64,000 nucleotides of DNA from NCBI GenBank assembly GCA_024276015.1, contig JAJRXZ010000016.1, positions 1-64,000 of the forward strand, given 5' to 3'. This document shows, one piece after another, positions 33,789 through 58,226 of the stretch; the first letter of the stretch is position 1, and every line of letters begins with the position of its first letter. The notes under the pieces were generated by a model, which saw only the letters and a list, made by a program, of their open reading frames with translations, was not told where the DNA came from and did no database searches. The stretch is from Spirochaetota bacterium (GTDB lineage: Bacteria; Spirochaetota; UBA4802; UBA5550). The translations under genes and the position numbers were made by a program.

Positions 33789-34094
33789 ATGGGTAAACCC
33801 ATAAAACCTTCGGCAGACCGCTTAATTAAATCGGGCCTGATTTCCAGACCGAGTGCTCCTCAAAAAAGCCCAAGGCATACTGATAAGCTTATCTTCTTTC
33901 CTGACTGGTGTAAAAAGTGCGGATTATGTACTGCAGTATGCCCTACAGGGGCGCTGAAACAGAATGGGCATGATAATCCTGTTCTGCCTGATCAGGACAA
34001 ATGCAGATTATGCTCATTATGCTGGAGGATCTGCCCCGATTTTGCCATTGTAAAAAATCCCGAATTTGAGGATAAAGAAAATGACGCTCAATAG
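33789..34094 (+). CDS. korD: 2-oxoacid:ferredoxin oxidoreductase, ferredoxin subunit (KorD)
   Basis: A 101-aa protein with two 4Fe-4S clusters: CKKCGLCTAVCPTGA and CRLCSLCWRICPDFA. It passes electrons from the thiamine-diphosphate subunit to soluble ferredoxin. The leader of about 35 residues before the first cluster is longer than in minimal KorD. ATG 33789 has GGAG nine nucleotides upstream; the in-frame ATG at 33774 has none. First gene of a four-gene operon and overlaps korA by 14 nt. Confidence 0.88.
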   Translation: MGKPIKPSADRLIKSGLISRPSAPQKSPRHTDKLIFFPDWCKKCGLCTAVCPTGALKQNGHDNPVLPDQDKCRLCSLCWRICPDFAIVKNPEFEDKENDAQ

Positions 34095-35250
34095 AAAATC
34101 TCCCCGCGGAAATCCGTTGCTTTTTATTCAGGGAAATGAGGCGTGCGTCTATGGAGCGATACATGCCGGATGCAATTTTTTTGCCGGATATCCCATTACT
34201 CCCTCAACCGAGATCACAGAGGGGATGTCCGTTAATCTTCCCGGAATCGGCGGAACCTTTATGCAGATGGAAGATGAGATCGCATCCATTGCAGCAATTA
34301 TCGGGGCATCTGCGGCAGGAGCGGTTTCAATGACAGCTACTTCCGGCCCCGGTTTTTCCCTTATGCAGGAAAATATAGGTTACGCATATATGGTACAACT
34401 GCCCATAGTTATTATTAACGTACAGCGAGGCGGGCCGTCAACAGGTCTCCCCACCATGCTTTCCCAGGCAGATACGATGCAGGCCAGATGGGGAACCCAC
34501 GGAGATTATACGGCAATAGTATTAACCGCATCCTCCGTTCAGGAAGCCTATAACGTTACAATAAGAGCTTTTCAGATTGCAGATAGATTCAGCACTCCTG
34601 TAATTGTTCTCCTTGACGAGCTTATCGGCCACATGAGAGAAAAAGTGGAATTGACTATGATCAATAATAAAAATCCTGTCAGAAGAAAACTTCCTGAAGT
34701 GCCGCCGGAATGGTATTTCCCATACAAAAACACTCTTGATATGGTATCCCACCCTGCCCCCTTCGGCGAAGGTTTCAGATACAATATAACGGGGCTGATT
34801 CACGACAAAGCCGGTTTCCCCAGCTCCGTAGAACATGAAGTCATCAACAGGATGGAATTTTTAAGAAATAAGATAATGCAGCACTGTCAGGAGATATGGG
34901 ATTACAGAGAATTTTATACTGAAGACGCAAAATATTTAATAATTGCATACGGCAGTGCGGCTCGTGCCGCAAGAGGAGCCATCGAAACCTTAAGAAATAT
35001 GAGAATAAAAGGCGGCCTGATTGAACTTAAAACAGTATGGCCCTTCCCTTATCTTCCAATATCTAAGATCGCAGAAAAAGCAAAATCCAAGATCATTTTT
35101 GTTGCTGAGAACAATATGGGCCAGCTTGTACATCCTGTAAATGAAATATTTTCAAATTCGGTTAAAGTCTTTAATATAAACAGGTTTGACGGACACGCCA
35201 TCGATCCTTATGAAATTGTAGATATGGTCAAGGAGAATATATATGCATGA
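34081..35250 (+). CDS. korA: 2-oxoglutarate:ferredoxin oxidoreductase, alpha subunit (KorA)
   Basis: A 389-aa subunit holding the pyruvate-ferredoxin-oxidoreductase N-domain and the transketolase C-domain. Marker motifs are FFAGYPITPSTEITE, TSGPGFSLMQEN, GGPSTGLPT and ARWGTHGDY, the last two being typical of 2-oxoglutarate-type KorA. With KorB it oxidises 2-oxoglutarate to succinyl-CoA. Start ATG 34081 has GAGGA about eight nucleotides upstream; a TTG at 34066 is rejected. Overlaps korD and korB, so coupled translation is likely. Exact substrate is inferred from sequence likeness. Confidence 0.88.
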   Translation: MTLNRKSPRGNPLLFIQGNEACVYGAIHAGCNFFAGYPITPSTEITEGMSVNLPGIGGTFMQMEDEIASIAAIIGASAAGAVSMTATSGPGFSLMQENIGYAYMVQLPIVIINVQRGGPSTGLPTMLSQADTMQARWGTHGDYTAIVLTASSVQEAYNVTIRAFQIADRFSTPVIVLLDELIGHMREKVELTMINNKNPVRRKLPEVPPEWYFPYKNTLDMVSHPAPFGEGFRYNITGLIHDKAGFPSSVEHEVINRMEFLRNKIMQHCQEIWDYREFYTEDAKYLIIAYGSAARAARGAIETLRNMRIKGGLIELKTVWPFPYLPISKIAEKAKSKIIFVAENNMGQLVHPVNEIFSNSVKVFNINRFDGHAIDPYEIVDMVKENIYA

Positions 35251-36088
35251 ACTTTCCGATGTATACTCATACCTGAGATGGAAAAAAAGATTTCCCGCAG
35301 TGTGGTGCCCCGGCTGCGGTATCGGTTCAATAATGGGAGCCATAATCAGGGCTATTATAGATCTTGAAATTCCCAAGGATGATATAGCTTTCATTTCCGG
35401 GATAGGCTGTACCGGCAGAATGCCTGTATATCTTGACTTCAATACTATGCATACCACTCACGGGCGGGCGCTTCCCTTTGCCACCGGAATAAAAATGCAC
35501 CGCCCTGAAATGAAAGTAATTGTGGTTTCAGGCGACGGCGATTCTCTTGCCATTGGAGGCAATCACTTTATCCATGCGGCAAGAAGAAATATAGATATAA
35601 CGATGATTCTGGTGAACAACAGTATCTACGGAATGACCGGAGGACAGGTAGCCCCCACAACTCCTATCGGCAAAGTGACTCATACAATGCCCTACGGCAA
35701 TTACGAACCTCCCTTCAATCCGGTCGAGCTGGCAGTATCTGCCGGCGGATCATTTGCAGCAAGGGGAACAGTATTTTCAATTTTGCAGACAACCGGTTAT
35801 ATAAAAAAAGCCATTAAGCACCCGGGATTTGCACTGGTAGAAATTATCAGCCAGTGCCCCGTTCAATATGGCAGGATGAATAATCTCGGCAGCGCAAGAG
35901 ATATGCTTCTTATGCAGAAAAAAAATTCAGTGCCTATTAAAAAGGCAAAGGAAATGTCTGAAGAAGATCTTGATGGAAAAATAATCACAGGTATTTTTAA
36001 AGAAGAGATCAAAACAGAATATTCAAGCGCTTACAGGAATTTTGCAAAGGAGATCAGGGATGGCACGGGAAGAGAGGACTCGCCATGA
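35243..36088 (+). CDS. korB: 2-oxoglutarate:ferredoxin oxidoreductase, beta subunit (KorB)
   Basis: A 281-aa thiamine-diphosphate-binding subunit. WCPGCGIGSIMGA and GIGCTGRMP are at the N-terminus; the cofactor motif GDGDSLAIGGNHFIHAARRN ends in NNSIYGMTGGQ. It forms the catalytic core with KorA. ATG 35243 has AGGAGA seven nucleotides upstream and overlaps the korA stop by eight nucleotides; its stop overlaps korC by four (ATGA). Confidence 0.92.
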   Translation: MHELSDVYSYLRWKKRFPAVWCPGCGIGSIMGAIIRAIIDLEIPKDDIAFISGIGCTGRMPVYLDFNTMHTTHGRALPFATGIKMHRPEMKVIVVSGDGDSLAIGGNHFIHAARRNIDITMILVNNSIYGMTGGQVAPTTPIGKVTHTMPYGNYEPPFNPVELAVSAGGSFAARGTVFSILQTTGYIKKAIKHPGFALVEIISQCPVQYGRMNNLGSARDMLLMQKKNSVPIKKAKEMSEEDLDGKIITGIFKEEIKTEYSSAYRNFAKEIRDGTGREDSP

Positions 36089-51685: not shown

Positions 51686-52231
51686 TTAATTATTTTTTGA
51701 TATCTCCATACCGCGCTTTACCGCCTTCAGATTATCCGGAATTGTTTTTCTATGATGCTCCGGTATTACTTCTTCAATAATATTTTCAATATCTTCATAT
51801 TTTAAAAAATCTATCCGGCCGATCAATGTGCCCAGTGTCACCATATTAGCCAATTTTGCATTACCGATGGCAACAGCTTCGTCATTGCAGTTGACTTTTA
51901 CAATATCTATATCATTCCGTTCTATGGCATCAGGAGGGATAAGATTTGAATTATATATTAAAACTCCGGCGCTTTTAAGAACAGGCTGATAAAAATCGAG
52001 TCCGATACGGTCCATTGCTATCAGAGCGCAGGGCATATTGGTAATTGGCGAACCTATATCCTCGTCCGACACAACAACAGTAACATTAGTTCTTCCGCCT
52101 CTCTTCTCTACTCCATAAGAAGGAAGATAGGTAATATTAAGCCCCTTCCTGATTGAAGCAACAGCAACAAGCTGGCTTATCATTTGAATTCCCTGACCGC
52201 CGAAACCGGTCATGATCATATCGTAATACAT
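51686..52231 (-). CDS. vorC: 2-oxoacid:ferredoxin oxidoreductase, gamma subunit (VorC)
   Basis: A 181-aa gamma subunit: IMTGFGGQGIQMISQLVA, LPSYGVEKRGGRTNV and ANMVTLGTLIGRI are the family markers. Last gene of a four-gene run D-B-A-C on the minus strand, 10 nt after the beta subunit. Assignment to branched-chain (VOR) type follows the alpha subunit. Confidence 0.88.
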   Translation of the reverse strand: MYYDMIMTGFGGQGIQMISQLVAVASIRKGLNITYLPSYGVEKRGGRTNVTVVVSDEDIGSPITNMPCALIAMDRIGLDFYQPVLKSAGVLIYNSNLIPPDAIERNDIDIVKVNCNDEAVAIGNAKLANMVTLGTLIGRIDFLKYEDIENIIEEVIPEHHRKTIPDNLKAVKRGMEISKNN

Positions 52232-52241
52232 CTTTCAATCC

Positions 52242-52997
52242 TTATAGAAAATCTTTTCCGGTTCTCTCTTTAAATGTTCCCAGAGGGAAATAAGGTATCA
52301 TTTCATTTTCCACTACATCAAGGGCTTCCGTTGGCGATACGCGCCAGTTTGTGCTGCACGTTGAAAGCATTTCTACAATAGAAAAACCCATATCATTCAT
52401 CTGCATTTCAAAGGCTTTTTTGATCGTTCTAGAAGCTCTGTTCACATGCTTAGGTGTATGGAGCGCAACTCTTGCGGAATAGGCGACTCCTTCCAGTGTG
52501 GCAAGCATCTCCGCCATCCTTATGGGGTATCCCTCGTTTTTGAAATCCCTGCCGTATGGCGATGTTGTTGTTTGCTGTCCCAGGAGAGTTGTGGGAGCCA
52601 TCTGCCCTCCTGTCATTCCGTAAACGGAATTATTTATAAAAAATACAGTTATATTTTCTCCTCTGTTGGCAGCATGAATAATTTCAGATGTTCCAATTGC
52701 CGCCATATCACCGTCGCCCTGATAAGCAAAGATTATCTTTTCCGGCCTTGCCCTTTTCATACCTGTTGCGCAGGCCGGAGCGCGTCCGTGAGGCGCTTCC
52801 AGTACATCAATAGGAAAATATTTATATAAAAATACACAGCATCCCACTCCGGGGATCCCAATAGTATTTCCTGTAATATTCAACTCGTCAAGAGCTTCGG
52901 CTACAAGTCTGTGCGCTATGCCATGGGTGCATCCGGGACAGAAATGGGTCTGCACCCGGTTTAAACTCTTCGGATATGCAAATACTCTATTCATCAT
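52242..52997 (-). CDS. vorA: 2-oxoacid:ferredoxin oxidoreductase, beta subunit (VorA)
   Basis: A 251-aa thiamine-diphosphate subunit. HFCPGCTHGIAHRLV and GIPGVGCC lead to the cofactor motif QGDGDMAAIGTSEIIHAANR and NNSVYGMTGGQMAPTT. With VorB it decarboxylates a 2-oxoacid and makes the acyl-CoA. GAGGTG lies just upstream of the double ATG start. The gap to vorB is six nucleotides. Confidence 0.9.
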   Translation of the reverse strand: MMNRVFAYPKSLNRVQTHFCPGCTHGIAHRLVAEALDELNITGNTIGIPGVGCCVFLYKYFPIDVLEAPHGRAPACATGMKRARPEKIIFAYQGDGDMAAIGTSEIIHAANRGENITVFFINNSVYGMTGGQMAPTTLLGQQTTTSPYGRDFKNEGYPIRMAEMLATLEGVAYSARVALHTPKHVNRASRTIKKAFEMQMNDMGFSIVEMLSTCSTNWRVSPTEALDVVENEMIPYFPLGTFKERTGKDFL

Positions 52998-53003
52998 TAC
53001 ACC

Positions 53004-54059
53004 TCATTTTTTGAGAGCCTTCAGAATCTCTTCGGCAATCTCATTTGGATAGGGGATCCCGCCTCCGGGCCTTCCGTAGAATGAAACTTCGGCATCTTTG
53101 CATAGGGAAACCTTCACGTCGTTAAGCATCTGGCCGGTGTTCATTTCAACTACAAGGATCTTCTTAATTTTATCCGAATAATCATGCAATTCGCTTTGAG
53201 GGAAAGGGAACAATGTTACAGGACGAAAGAGACCTGCCTTTACTCCATCCTCCCTCAAATATCTGATAGCTGTTTTCGATATTCTTGAGGGCGTTCCAAA
53301 GGCAACTACCATAATTTCCGCATCGTCCAGCATAAAACTTTCGGCTATGGTTTCTTTTTCCTCAATTTCTCTGTATTTTTTCTGGAGATCCCTGTTGTGG
53401 GTTTCCTGCTCTCCGGGGCCGAGAAAGAGAGATTTAAGAATTTGAGGGCTTCTGCCTTGGGCTCCTGTCAATGACCAGGGCTTCTCAAATACTTCCACAG
53501 TATGATCAGGCTCAAGTCTGCATGCTTCCTGAAATTGGCCGATCATAGCATCTGCAATTATCATTGAAGGATTGCGGTACTTATCGGAAAGCTCAAAGGC
53601 CTTAATTGTAAGATCAAACATTTCCTGAACCGAAGCAGGAGCCAATACTATATTTCTGTAATCGCCATGCCCGCCGCCATGTACGGCCTGACTGTAATCT
53701 CCCTGAGTGGGATCGATCCCTCCGAGACCGGGTCCGCACCTCATAATATTAACGATTACTCCCGGAATTTCCGATCCTGCCATATATGAGATTCCTTCCT
53801 GCATAAGAGATATCCCGGGACCGGAAGAAGATGTCATCGCCCTTACGCCGGAAGCTGAAGCACCCATCACCATGTTTATAGATGCGATCTCACTTTCGGC
53901 AGGAACAAAGGTACCACCCACTTTGGGAAGATTCATCGCCAGATATTCCGGTATATCATTCTGAGGAGTAATGGGATATCCGAAATAAAATCTGCAGCCG
54001 GCCTGTATGGCTCCTTCGGCAAGAGCAATATTGCCTTTGGTCAATTTTTTTTCACTCAT
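53004..54059 (-). CDS. vorB: 3-methyl-2-oxobutanoate:ferredoxin oxidoreductase, alpha subunit (VorB)
   Basis: A 351-aa alpha subunit. FYFGYPITPQNDIPEYLA, MTSSSGPGISLMQEG and especially GPGLGGIDPTQGDY with GGGHGDYRNIVLAP are the VorB form, unlike the GPSTGLPT/WGTHGDY form of the kor operon. It would oxidise branched-chain 2-oxoacids from valine, leucine or isoleucine to acyl-CoA, although the substrate remains an inference. Overlaps vorD by four nucleotides (ATGA). Confidence 0.88.
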   Translation of the reverse strand: MSEKKLTKGNIALAEGAIQAGCRFYFGYPITPQNDIPEYLAMNLPKVGGTFVPAESEIASINMVMGASASGVRAMTSSSGPGISLMQEGISYMAGSEIPGVIVNIMRCGPGLGGIDPTQGDYSQAVHGGGHGDYRNIVLAPASVQEMFDLTIKAFELSDKYRNPSMIIADAMIGQFQEACRLEPDHTVEVFEKPWSLTGAQGRSPQILKSLFLGPGEQETHNRDLQKKYREIEEKETIAESFMLDDAEIMVVAFGTPSRISKTAIRYLREDGVKAGLFRPVTLFPFPQSELHDYSDKIKKILVVEMNTGQMLNDVKVSLCKDAEVSFYGRPGGGIPYPNEIAEEILKALKK

Positions 54060-54265
54060 TTATAAACCTCTATGGCGGTATCGGGACACATTAAAGCACA
54101 TGTCTTACAGCCGGTACACTCCTCGGGCCCTTCTTCACTAAATAGGGCCGGGAAATAACCAAGCCGGTTATGTTCTTTTGATTCGGCGATAAGGTCTCTG
54201 GGACAAAACTTTATACAAAAATAACAGGCTTTGCATTTTTCTTCGTCAATAATTATATGTGCCAT
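54056..54265 (-). CDS. vorD: 2-oxoacid:ferredoxin oxidoreductase, ferredoxin subunit (VorD)
   Basis: A 69-aa dicluster ferredoxin: CKACYFCIKFCPRDLI and CTGCKTCALMCPDTAI. ATG 54265 begins MAHIIIDEEKCKAC directly and has AGGAAA about ten nucleotides upstream; a longer open frame to 54340 adds an unlikely leader and is not used. First gene of vorDBAC and divergent from an HTH-cupin regulator. Confidence 0.9.
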   Translation of the reverse strand: MAHIIIDEEKCKACYFCIKFCPRDLIAESKEHNRLGYFPALFSEEGPEECTGCKTCALMCPDTAIEVYK

Positions 54266-54304
54266 GTTAGAAAATTTCCTGATTTTTCTTAATAAATTAA
54301 TTAT

Positions 54305-54330
54305 AAAAAACAATAAAGTTGTTGTTTTTT
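54305..54330. promoter_or_regulatory. Inverted repeat between vorD and the HTH-cupin gene
   Basis: AAAAAACAA (54305-54313) and TTGTTTTTT (54322-54330) form a 9-bp inverted repeat with an 8-nt spacer, 40 nt from the vorD start and 150 nt from the regulator start. It is a candidate binding site for the adjacent regulator. Low complexity makes chance pairing possible. Confidence 0.3.
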
Positions 54331-54479
54331 CATCATACATTTAAAATATTTAGTCATAATAACAGTTTTAAAAGTTACTTAAATTAAGTCAACCAAAACA
54401 ATTGGAATATGATCATTTATTTAAAAATAAGAGTCCCAATATTCTGATCTGCAATAATAAATCCCTTCCTGGAGGTACT

Positions 54480-55046
54480 ATGAATAAAGATGTTAAAGTC
54501 GGCAAAAAAATAAAAGAAGTGAGAGAAGCAATGGGTCTCAGCCTTAAAGACCTGGCCGATAAAACCGGTTTTTCTACCGCTTTTCTCTCCCAGATTGAAA
54601 ACCATCTGATCTCACCGCCTCTGGGAGCAATAATAAATATTGCCGGTTCGCTTGATGTTGAGATCGGAACTCTCTTTGACCAGAAAGGGGAAGCTCCCTT
54701 TACGCTGGTTAGAAAGGATCAGAGACAGACCACTTCAAGGGTTGCTTCAAAAGAGGGCGTAAGATACGGCTACTCTTACGAATCCCTTGCACCGGATAAG
54801 ATCAACAGAAATATGGAGCCCTTTCTTGTAACTCTGGAACCCACATCCAAAAAGGGAGTTCCCTATAAACACGAAGGCGAAGAATTTATATTCGTCCTTG
54901 AAGGCAGAGTGGAAGTACAGCTTGGTGAATTTATCGATATCCTCGAACCCGGTGACAGCATTTACTACGATTCTACTTTTCCTCACAGAGTTTCATGCGC
55001 AGACGGAGAAAAAATTGCAAAGATCCTTGCCGTTATATACGCGTGA
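54480..55046 (+). CDS. XRE-type HTH regulator with cupin domain
   Basis: A 188-aa regulator. Residues about 7-62 are an XRE helix-turn-helix (IKEVREAMGLSLKDLADKTG then STAFLSQIEN); residues about 110-186 are a cupin (KHEGEEFIFVLEGRVEVQL then LEPGDSIYYDSTFPHRV) that should bind a small ligand. ATG 54480 has a perfect GGAGG four nucleotides before the TACT spacer; an in-frame ATG at 54402 has none. It is divergent from vorDBAC and likely controls it in response to a metabolite. Confidence 0.9.
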   Translation: MNKDVKVGKKIKEVREAMGLSLKDLADKTGFSTAFLSQIENHLISPPLGAIINIAGSLDVEIGTLFDQKGEAPFTLVRKDQRQTTSRVASKEGVRYGYSYESLAPDKINRNMEPFLVTLEPTSKKGVPYKHEGEEFIFVLEGRVEVQLGEFIDILEPGDSIYYDSTFPHRVSCADGEKIAKILAVIYA

Positions 55047-55058
55047 AAAAGCAACCGG

Positions 55059-58000
55059 TTAATCCCGGGGGAAAGGGAGAGACAGCTGATCAAAATCATC
55101 GTTTCTTTCAATTTTCTCTCTTTTATCTATTTCGTAAAGGTCTCTCTCTATGCTGTTCAGAAAAGCGCTTCTGGGATTTCTTAAAATCCTTCCCCTATAA
55201 TTTCTTTTTTCCGCATGTGTCAGATAAAGACTCTCCTCCGTTCGCGTAATCCCAACATAAAGAAGGCGCTTCTCCTCTGCCAGCGCGTCATTGTCCGGAC
55301 TGCCGAAAAGGCTAAAGGGGATTATCCCTTGCTCACAGCCCGGGATAAAAACAGTATTAAACTGGAGCCCCTTTGAAGCATGCAGCGTCATCAATGAAAC
55401 CGCCTCCGCATTCGTATCAAAATCATCAACCCCTCTGCGGAGAGCGACTGCTCTTAAAAAATCATTATAATTGTTTTCAAATCTGCCGGCAAAGGAAGTG
55501 ATCTTTTCCAGTTCTCTCTCTTCAACTTCCTGCCATTCCATTATCTTTTTTATTATATCAGAAACATTTACGCGGCTCTGTATCATTTCATAAAGCGACC
55601 TTTCCCTGCCGCCGGCATTTCCGGGGTCATTCATCTTCAACACTGATCTAAAAAGTTTCAATACCGAAGAAAAAGGCTCTTTCTCACAAAAGTGTTTAGT
55701 ATCAATTACCTGATAAGCAATTCCATGATTTTTAAAGGCTTCTATGAAAGGCTGAAACATAAATGCGGAACGGCAAAGAACCGCAAAATCTGAAAAGCCC
55801 TTTGATGAATTTTCCCAATTGCCGTCGCTGACACCGCTGTCAATTGAAAAGCTTCTCACGCCTCCCAGCATCTTTTCTATTCTTTCGGCAATCCAGTCCG
55901 CTTCGCTTCTGTCAGTTTCCATTTGATGAATATGTATCCTCATCGTGCCCTCATTGCCGTTGAGCAGATCTTCTCTGTCTAAAATACAGCTTCCTGCCTT
56001 TAGAACGATCTGCGGGCACCTGTAGCTTTTATTAAGATTTATTACTGTTGTTCCGGGATAATCATGAAGAACCATCTGAAAGAATTCATTCTTTGATCCT
56101 CTGAAACTGTAAATGGACTGATCCGGGTCCCCGATGAGAAAGAGCTCCGAGTCATTTGCGGTAATTGCTCTGAGCAGATCGTATTGAACCCGGTTTATGT
56201 CCTGAAATTCATCAACAAAGATCCATTGATATCTCCCCCTATACTCTTTCGAAATAGGGCCCTTATTCTCAAGCAGTTCAAGAGGCAGTAAGACCAAGTC
56301 GTCAAGGTCAAAGGAATTATTTTTTATTAATTCTCTGTTATAAATATCAATTAGTTCCGGTCGGATATCTCCGGTGAAAACTCTCTGTTTATATAATCGT
56401 ATCTCCCTTAATATCTTTCCCTTTTTTCTTTTATCATCTGTTATATTTTCAATTATATGCATTCTTTCATCGTCGCCGATAATAGTAAAATCTTTATCCC
56501 TGCCCAGTTCACTGAAATATTTTCCGATCATTGACAGACCGAAGGAATGATAAGTTGTTACATTTACGCCGGCTTCTCCTGCGCGCAGTTTGATCCTATG
56601 CGAGATCTCTTCCGCCGCATGATTCGAAAAGGTAATTGCCAGTATATCCGAAGGATTTACATTTTTCTTTTCAATGAGATATGAGATCCTTTCGGTTAGA
56701 ACTCTCGTTTTCCCGGATCCCGGGCCTGCAATTATAACACAATTGCCTTTGTCAAACCGAACAGCTCTTTTCTGTTCCTGAGAGAGAATTATTCCGGCTC
56801 TATTTTCCTTATCCGCCTCTTTATGCTCTTCCGTAAACTCATTACCGTTATATGAAGCATATATATCTTTAAATTTCTCAATATCAAACCTGACCGAAAA
56901 ATTCTTCCCCTCTGAAATACCGGTACCGGCCCTATTGTATCTGCTGCCGAAGAGGCTCCCGCCGTATAAATCGATCTCCTCCTCACTGAAAACTCTTATC
57001 TTCCCGAATTCACCGTCATACCCCTCTTCTACTATCACTTCGTTGTTCCGTAATCTTCTAACAGCCTCTGCCAGCAGTTCACTGCCTGCAGCCTCAATTT
57101 CATCTATACCAGCATCAAGCATAACGTAAAATTCAGGGCCAAGATTCTCAATGATTCCAAAATACTCTTTAACGACTCTTTTGGATTTACTGCTTTTTAC
57201 CCGAAATATCTCGCTTATTACGTCGGGCAGTTGGGTTATTGAATAAAAATCTCTTTTATCCGGCGCTGAATCGATATCTCCCCTATCGGCAAGCCTGGCA
57301 ACTCTGTGCATAACTCCTTTAGTAACCGCCTTCCCGCACACAGTACAGATCCCTTTGCGGGATATGGTTTCAAGAGGGTCCCAGCGAATATTGCATTTTC
57401 TGTGTCCGTCATAAAAATATTTTCCCTCCTGCGGATGGAATTCAATAGTGCCTATAAATCCCGAATCCCCCTTGAGCGAATTAAGTATATCCTTATAGGA
57501 TAAACCGGAATTAAAGATATTTGCTTCTCTTCCGATTTTTTCCGGAGAATGAGCATCGGAGTTTGACACAAGTTTATACCTGTCCAGAAATGAACATACC
57601 CTGTTCATAGGCGGATCAGAGGACAACCCCGTTTCCAGAGCAAAGATATTACCGCTCAGATCTTCATAGCATTCTTCTATGCTGTCAAAACCGGATTTTG
57701 AGCCCAGTACGGAAAACCATGGCGTCCATATATGAGCCGGTATCAAAAAAGAATTATCGGACGTTTCAAGATGGTACTGTAAAAGGATCTTTGAATCAAG
57801 TCCCAGAATTGGTCTCCCGTCCGATTCAATACTGCCCACTCTCCGAAGTTTATTCTGTAATTTTTTAACGGCTTCAAAATGCGGAAACACGCATAAATTG
57901 TGTACCTTTCGGACTCTTCCGTCTTTCTTATAAATATTGCTGATCTCAGAGGATAAAATGAAATAGGGTTTCCTGAAATTTTCCTTATGCAGCAATTCTT

Positions 58001-58226
58001 TTGTTTCCTCAAGTCTGTACTCATCCTTAAGGGAATAAAGTCCGTTCTCCTGTAATTCCAGTTCCTCCTCAAGTTCTTTGAGCCATCCGGGATGAACCGC
58101 ATCGCCTGTTCCTATAACGTCAATTCCTTTAATAACAGCCCAGTAATCAAGGTACCGCGGTATTAAATTTTTGCTTGTAGCAATTGAAAAGTGCGAATGA
58201 ATATGAAAATCAGCAATGAATTTCAC
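55059..58226 (-). CDS. EndoQ (PHP nuclease) fused to UvrD-like helicase
   Basis: A 1055-aa two-part protein. The first 430 residues match endonuclease Q: PHP metal motifs DFHIHSHFS (6-14), GTGDAVHP (39-46) and SNSDAH, then GHRKCNIRW and the zinc motif CTVCGK (Cys294/Cys297) with MHRVARLADR. EndoQ cuts DNA 5' of deaminated bases. From about residue 480 an SF1A helicase follows: LSQEQKRAV, Walker A GPGSGKT (Lys506), ITFSNHAAEEI, VDEFQD (Asp672), GDPDQSIYSFRG, LNKSYRC and TLHASKGLQF. Start GTG 58226 has GAGG five nucleotides upstream. It is monocistronic, with a two-component gene upstream. Confidence 0.85.
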   Translation of the reverse strand: MKFIADFHIHSHFSIATSKNLIPRYLDYWAVIKGIDVIGTGDAVHPGWLKELEEELELQENGLYSLKDEYRLEETKELLHKENFRKPYFILSSEISNIYKKDGRVRKVHNLCVFPHFEAVKKLQNKLRRVGSIESDGRPILGLDSKILLQYHLETSDNSFLIPAHIWTPWFSVLGSKSGFDSIEECYEDLSGNIFALETGLSSDPPMNRVCSFLDRYKLVSNSDAHSPEKIGREANIFNSGLSYKDILNSLKGDSGFIGTIEFHPQEGKYFYDGHRKCNIRWDPLETISRKGICTVCGKAVTKGVMHRVARLADRGDIDSAPDKRDFYSITQLPDVISEIFRVKSSKSKRVVKEYFGIIENLGPEFYVMLDAGIDEIEAAGSELLAEAVRRLRNNEVIVEEGYDGEFGKIRVFSEEEIDLYGGSLFGSRYNRAGTGISEGKNFSVRFDIEKFKDIYASYNGNEFTEEHKEADKENRAGIILSQEQKRAVRFDKGNCVIIAGPGSGKTRVLTERISYLIEKKNVNPSDILAITFSNHAAEEISHRIKLRAGEAGVNVTTYHSFGLSMIGKYFSELGRDKDFTIIGDDERMHIIENITDDKRKKGKILREIRLYKQRVFTGDIRPELIDIYNRELIKNNSFDLDDLVLLPLELLENKGPISKEYRGRYQWIFVDEFQDINRVQYDLLRAITANDSELFLIGDPDQSIYSFRGSKNEFFQMVLHDYPGTTVINLNKSYRCPQIVLKAGSCILDREDLLNGNEGTMRIHIHQMETDRSEADWIAERIEKMLGGVRSFSIDSGVSDGNWENSSKGFSDFAVLCRSAFMFQPFIEAFKNHGIAYQVIDTKHFCEKEPFSSVLKLFRSVLKMNDPGNAGGRERSLYEMIQSRVNVSDIIKKIMEWQEVEERELEKITSFAGRFENNYNDFLRAVALRRGVDDFDTNAEAVSLMTLHASKGLQFNTVFIPGCEQGIIPFSLFGSPDNDALAEEKRLLYVGITRTEESLYLTHAEKRNYRGRILRNPRSAFLNSIERDLYEIDKREKIERNDDFDQLSLPFPRD

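Follow-up and report, generated by a model that had tools for sequence, protein, structure and literature searches.

Endonuclease Q (EndoQ) is treated in the literature as a mainly archaeal enzyme, and the steps downstream of its cut are drawn there as models only; in the 2015 model for archaeal EndoQ, a helicase removes the damaged piece after the cuts by EndoQ and endonuclease V (EndoV) (PMC4357722, Fig. 10). In archaea, a PIP box at the C-terminus of EndoQ binds PCNA (KD 55 nM), and PCNA in turn stimulates the enzyme (PMC4858679). Bacterial homologues appear with their lengths in Fig. 9A of the 2015 paper (PMC4357722), and one passing sentence of a 2016 paper, which names B. subtilis and Desulfovibrio, states that they have a beta-clamp motif (PMC4858679). 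EndoQ-type cleavage has been reported for the stand-alone EndoQs of Bacillus pumilus and B. subtilis, which are described as stand-alone enzymes and are in this respect set apart from the protein presented here.

Nicking and unwinding are linked in other systems as well. With PcrA and the RepD nickase, and with UvrD after MutH and MutL, the nickase gives the entry point from which a 3'->5' helicase displaces a strand, and it is in this way of working that we compare them with the present protein; there, however, the partners are separate proteins, and the nicks are set by sequence or mismatch rather than by a deaminated base. In Gabija (GajA–GajB) and RecB/AddA a nuclease is joined to or paired with a UvrD-like helicase, as in our case, but the nucleases have other folds, the roles are in defense or at double-strand breaks, and there is no lesion-recognition pocket.

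We here report a gene in which an EndoQ nuclease is followed, in the same polypeptide, by a complete helicase of the UvrD/PcrA type. It lies in a 64-kb stretch of spirochaete DNA, which we call the window (features are collected in Table 1). The EndoQ-UvrD fusion is real, conserved, and widespread; its interest lies in the joining of the two enzymes and in the paired clamp motifs that come with it. A preliminary description of this DNA had proposed the joining of the two enzymes, and the single ORF bears it out, with the PHP motifs, the GHRKC...CxxCG zinc site, and the SF1A motifs all found where expected in the sequence. The GTG start is backed by relatives, which share the N-terminus MKFIADFHIHS. 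Full-text search found no description of an EndoQ-UvrD fusion (subscription papers were mostly outside this search, and an earlier mention is possible), and the literature searched contained no assay of any protein of this architecture.

Table 1. Features of the EndoQ-UvrD gene and protein; coordinates are positions in the window
Feature	Residues	Coordinates	Strand	Details and basis
EndoQ-UvrD fusion gene		55059..58226	(-)	1055 aa, GTG start, one open ORF
EndoQ nuclease module (PHP + zinc-binding + C-terminal domains)	1-414	56985..58226	(-)	phmmer, Foldseek, invariant residues
Zinc site H275-x2-C278...C294-x2-C297	275-297	57336..57404	(-)	each residue 47/47
Linker	415-480	56787..56984	(-)	short helices, partly low-confidence; AlphaFold
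Degenerate junction clamp motif GGSLF	422-426	56949..56963	(-)	Gln absent in the window protein
SF1A UvrD/PcrA-type helicase module	481-1024	55155..56786	(-)	Pfam, PDB profile, Foldseek, motifs
Helicase motif GPGSGKT	501-507
Helicase motif VDEFQD	671-676
Helicase motif GDPDQSIYSFRG	699-710
Helicase motif LMTLHASKGLQF	945-956
Helicase motif VGITR	991-995
C-terminal candidate beta-clamp-binding motif QLSLPF	1047-1052	55071..55088	(-)	Q1047 invariant (47/47) in the 47-row alignment of fused proteins

The likeness of the nuclease half to EndoQ is not confined to the PHP fold, whose motifs the preliminary description had pointed to, but runs over the full length. Residues 5-414 match PfuEndoQ 5zb8 (phmmer, E 5e-45), a profile of 47 fused proteins matches PfuEndoQ over profile positions 5-418, and the AlphaFold2 model superposes on 5zb8 with a Foldseek target TM of 0.89 (2.4 Å, 422 columns). 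Every EndoQ metal ligand checked is present: H8, H10, D42, E94, H109, H165, D224, and H226 are each invariant in the 47 fused proteins (47/47), as are the pocket positions G200 and S202. We took residue roles from a review of PfuEndoQ structures, according to which E76, H84, and H139 are essential zinc ligands whose replacement by alanine abolishes cleavage, while H139, G169, and S171 keep T and A out of the pocket (PMC8307549). These residues correspond to E94, H109, H165, G200, and S202 of the window protein. D224 aligns with a residue that is Asp in 5zb8 and Asn in 7k30-type crystal chains. The fusion has its nuclease fold, catalytic ligands, and T/A-excluding residues in common with the archaeal enzymes (PfuEndoQ, TkoEndoQ, and MacEndoQ), which differ in being without a helicase. 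From these intact residues we infer that the EndoQ half would cleave 5' of dU, dI, and abasic sites.

The zinc site is where the fused proteins depart from this pattern. The GHRKC block singled out in the preliminary description is present, but it is one half of a changed site, in which the first ligand is His (H275) in place of the Cys (C249) of PfuEndoQ, so that the four-cysteine site of PfuEndoQ is His-Cys3 in all 47 fused proteins. Since this swap is of a kind still able to bind zinc, we treat it as a difference of the subfamily and not as a ground for exclusion from EndoQ. The EndoQ-type NCBIfam model TIGR00375 covers residues 5-410 with a significant match (5.7e-37), but its score of 128 bits stays under the curated cut-off, which is 327; the module has thus diverged from the modeled EndoQs and falls outside their narrow group.

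The second half is an SF1A helicase by every measure applied. Pfam places UvrD-helicase at residues 481-723 (4.5e-65) and UvrD_C at 910-1006 (5.5e-32), the best NCBIfam model of the protein is PcrA, and a PDB profile search with the 47 fused proteins returns PcrA 1pjr (E 5e-156, profile positions 467-1078), while Foldseek matches the fold to UvrD and UvrD–DNA complexes with a target TM of up to 0.75. The Q motif, Walker A and B, and motifs III-VI are all intact, and Q485, K506, T507, D672, E673, Q675, Q703, R709, R736, H949, and R995 are invariant in the 47-protein alignment. All motifs and the domain fold are common to the UvrD/PcrA/Rep helicases, and this half would be expected to unwind DNA in an ATP-dependent manner and with 3'->5' polarity. 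It differs from these helicases in being shorter, in having a nuclease at its N-terminal side, and in carrying a putative clamp-binding peptide in place of the Tudor-like, RNA-polymerase-binding C-terminus of canonical UvrD/PcrA, the window protein ending in QLSLPFPRD. The longer C-terminus typical of UvrD/PcrA, which we take to be Tudor-like from what is known of those proteins, is found in nearly all of 29 ordinary UvrD controls, the host's own among them. The fused helicase subfamily is also marked by a conserved GG..SFS.DSG segment (window protein residues 788-812, ∼55791-55865, minus strand), to which we know of no obvious counterpart in ordinary UvrD.

A nuclease joined to a UvrD-like helicase recalls Gabija, and an anti-phage system might be built in this way, to destroy phage DNA that contains uracil or is modified in some other manner. 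PADLOC GajB models match the helicase half at 2e-85, and a possible antiviral role has been raised in a review for Bacillus EndoQ (PMC8307549). Yet the PcrA model outscores GajB (345 vs 286 bits), the protein has no OLD/TOPRIM nuclease domain, and the GajA OLD-family nuclease partner that defines Gabija is absent from both the protein and the adjacent genes examined, among which there are no defense genes either. The fused gene moreover has zero copies in 72,556 plasmid and 50,697 phage records, and its clamp motif is conserved; taken together, this makes a defense role highly improbable.

The protein ends in ...DDFDQLSLPFPRD, which contains a candidate beta-clamp-binding motif. Bacterial beta-clamp partners carry QLxLF, with hexameric QLxLxF-type forms allowed and the Gln important (PMC11139829). 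Here a peptide of this type lies in an accessible tail (residues 1037-1055) of low model confidence (pLDDT < 50) that is predicted to be disordered, as is found for clamp clients. Within the last 20 residues, all 76 complete fused proteins have the motif in relaxed form and 68/76 in strict form, compared with 2/29 and 0/29, respectively, of the ordinary UvrDs of the window's phylum. QxxLF stands three residues or fewer from the C-terminus in 71/76 fused proteins, as against 22/597 neighboring ORFs, many of these 22 being themselves unfused EndoQs. Archaeal EndoQ likewise has its clamp-binding peptide at the C-terminus, there a PIP box for PCNA, whereas that of the fusion would serve the bacterial clamp. 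With the C-terminal motif, which the preliminary description does not mention, we read the protein no longer as a free enzyme of two domains but as one that would be tethered to the beta clamp by this peptide, although short motifs of this sort can be kept for other partners.

A second copy of the motif is found at the junction of the two halves, where we scored it in 75 fused proteins, always the same number of residues from the DGxxG anchor, the last EndoQ motif. QxxLF is present there in about half of the relatives (Q 40/75, L 46/75, F 43/75), and about half keep both the junction and the C-terminal motif. Because the window protein has GGSLF at its junction, lacking the Gln, and a Gln-to-Gly change in a clamp motif is reported to lower affinity greatly (PMC11139829), its C-terminal copy is probably the working one. 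The junction motif lies in the linker, which has pLDDT < 50 at residues 423-428, 431-442, and 463-478. The AlphaFold2 model as a whole, made with the 47 fused sequences, has a mean pLDDT of 86 and a pTM of 0.72, with the relative placement of the two halves not established.

How common the fusion is had been left open in the preliminary description. Scanning 84,980 species yielded at least 590 stretches that code for a relative of the window's EndoQ, and in 58 of the best 80 of these loci it is fused to a helicase in one ORF. The fused loci fall in more than 10 phyla, among them Thermodesulfobacteriota, Myxococcota, Bacteroidota, Chloroflexota, Nitrospinota, Elusimicrobiota, and Calditrichota, and further Spirochaetota, Binatota, Fibrobacterota, Cloacimonadota, Latescibacterota, and Bacillota; many of the sources are metagenome assemblies, and isolates occur too (Geobacter argillaceus and Propionispora sp. 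2/2-37). EndoQ had been described as occurring chiefly in archaea, which does not hold for the fused branch, a distinct and widespread bacterial subfamily. In the window's phylum, 45/296 sampled genomes have an EndoQ-half match; in the window's own family and order, most of the genomes positive for EndoQ have it in the fused form. Across the phylum, the identity of fused proteins ranges from 46 to 67% for the EndoQ half and from 28 to 48% for the helicase half. The genome that contains the window is a draft of 92 contigs, in which two unrelated genes might be joined by chance or by an assembly artefact, but we dismiss this as practically impossible, because many independent genomes, some of them isolates or assembled into one contig, carry the one-ORF fusion within a single contig, both in those other phyla and in the window's own family and order. 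A mobile-element origin was likewise rejected, the plasmid and phage records being without copies. In another genus of the window's family, a 57-aa frame holds 36 residues of an EndoQ N-terminus at 69% identity (G020:C26:222298-222405); this fragment is probably the remnant of a decayed copy.

A quick tree puts the fused-type EndoQs together in a single group (SH-aLRT 95), far from the majority of the phylum's stand-alone EndoQs. The unfused relatives are mostly nested within the fused clade, with the stand-alone EndoQs of Nitrospirota sitting as one cluster inside it. The arrangement suggests that the fusion is old and that fissions came later, on a root that rests on long branches. In the helicase tree, the fused and split helicase halves lie on one side of a branch from the ordinary UvrDs of the window's phylum, with a support of 94 for the UvrD group and of 48 for the node joining all fused and split rows.

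Of the 19 unfused EndoQs of the fused-type clade, 14 end in QxxLF or nearly so, and in three split pairs (L127, L135, and L092) the EndoQ and the adjacent helicase both carry a clamp motif, the helicase frame of L127 starting 4 bp downstream of EndoQ. We left L126 and L128, which are possibly frameshifts, out of this evidence. That the motif stays with each separated piece supports clamp tethering as a purpose common to fused and split forms. The same pairs could be taken to mean that the halves were fused merely for joint delivery to the clamp and serve separate reactions, namely deamination repair in the case of EndoQ and mismatch repair or fork clearance in that of the helicase. Such loose association fits separate proteins that each have a motif of their own, and most Nitrospirota EndoQs, which are without an adjacent helicase; the genes of the three split pairs nevertheless remain neighbors, and the fused helicases keep to their side of the branch from ordinary UvrD, so that we consider this reading improbable. 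The split pairs also constitute natural trans controls for the fusion.

The host genome encodes a beta clamp. It also has a separate canonical UvrD/PcrA of 732 aa with the usual C-terminus (Tudor-like as we read its sequence), and the fused helicase is therefore an additional, dedicated paralogue. A uracil-DNA glycosylase is likewise encoded, so that the fused enzyme is not the sole route of uracil repair in this organism; we rejected the idea that EndoQ-UvrD replaces this glycosylase, since PF03167 is found in 289/296 genomes of the phylum, including the host. EndoV is not detectable in the host genome. Across the window's order, EndoQ-UvrD is present in 17/46 sampled genomes, EndoV in 14/46, and both in 0/46 (naive Fisher p 5e-4). 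This pattern might point to a replacement of EndoV by EndoQ-UvrD, but presence follows whole families, and in another family of the phylum three genomes (G003, G016, and G061) have both. Genome G127 has only an EndoV-like remnant, a sub-threshold 36-aa frame with a stop.

The window neighbors of the gene are an HD-domain response regulator, an XRE-cupin regulator, and 2-oxoacid:ferredoxin oxidoreductase genes; those examined show no functional link to the fused gene, whose surroundings likewise revealed no conserved operon with repair genes. The 64-kb window is without RNA elements or tRNAs. It holds two sets of 2-oxoacid:ferredoxin oxidoreductase genes of alpha and beta type (34066-36088 and 51686-54340), the second of which adds gamma- and delta-type subunits and faces the XRE-cupin regulator at 54402-55046 (subunit names were assigned by sequence reading). 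Eight loci of Desulfobacterales type (L091, L108, L128, L133, L146, L148, L151, and L153) have a small opposite-strand gene pair upstream, of ∼205-265 and 175 aa, one of them weakly RdgC-like (E 0.0025, below cut-off). In five or six of these eight, genes read from their sequences as dnaN-like and gyrB-like follow, and this proximity in some Desulfobacterales may be counted as a weak hint.

The explanation we favor, and consider likely, is that the protein is a clamp-tethered nucleotide-incision-repair enzyme that nicks 5' of a deaminated base and then unwinds the lesion strand. The EndoQ half would locate a deaminated base (uracil or hypoxanthine) or an abasic site, flip it out, and cut the phosphodiester 5' of the lesion, leaving a 3'-OH and a lesion-bearing 5'-phosphate end. 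The UvrD-type half would load at this nick and peel away the lesion-carrying end, for which a 3'->5' helicase of the SF1A type has to travel on the intact strand. The same holds for UvrD when it starts from a 5' nick during mismatch repair, and for PcrA working with a rolling-circle nickase. The QLSLPF peptide would meanwhile keep the enzyme on the beta sliding clamp, as the PIP box keeps archaeal EndoQ on PCNA, which would direct nicking and unwinding to replicated DNA and allow a polymerase sitting on the same ring to take over the 3'-OH. The repair would be completed by separate proteins, namely a flap nuclease or exonuclease, a polymerase, and a ligase. The preliminary description had spoken of a one-polypeptide excision pathway, which overstates the case: no domain for flap cutting, gap filling, or ligation is visible, and the protein would accordingly cover the first two steps of the pathway.

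The order of events might instead be reversed, with the UvrD motor, together with the clamp or the fork, opening the duplex and EndoQ then cutting deaminated bases in the single strands; the nick would be the end product, and displacing the strand would be left to a polymerase. Deamination is fastest in single-stranded DNA, and the architecture and the clamp motif fit this order equally well. EndoQ does cleave U and Hx in single strands (PMC11354406). On the other hand, nicks and 3' tails are the usual loading sites of SF1A helicases, and EndoQ would itself provide them; a fork, moreover, would be broken by a cut in its single-stranded DNA. We regard helicase action before incision as rather unlikely. 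Incision followed by unwinding could, in those fused proteins that keep both clamp motifs, be coupled to replication in a more specific way. We suggest tentatively that the two motifs may fill both pockets of one beta-clamp ring, on which the nick, the peeling, and the hand-over to the polymerase would all take place, and the orientation of the clamp would set the strand, as for MutL in mismatch repair.

The fusion points to an as yet undescribed, one-protein start of the repair of deaminated DNA. With EndoQ on PCNA in archaea and apparently on the bacterial clamp in bacteria, the same design would be found in two domains of life, and the covalent link of EndoQ to a helicase, and apparently to the clamp, means that what follows the nick can be tested directly with a single purified protein. 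If our reading is true, these bacteria would have, side by side with uracil-DNA glycosylase, a repair route that needs no glycosylase.
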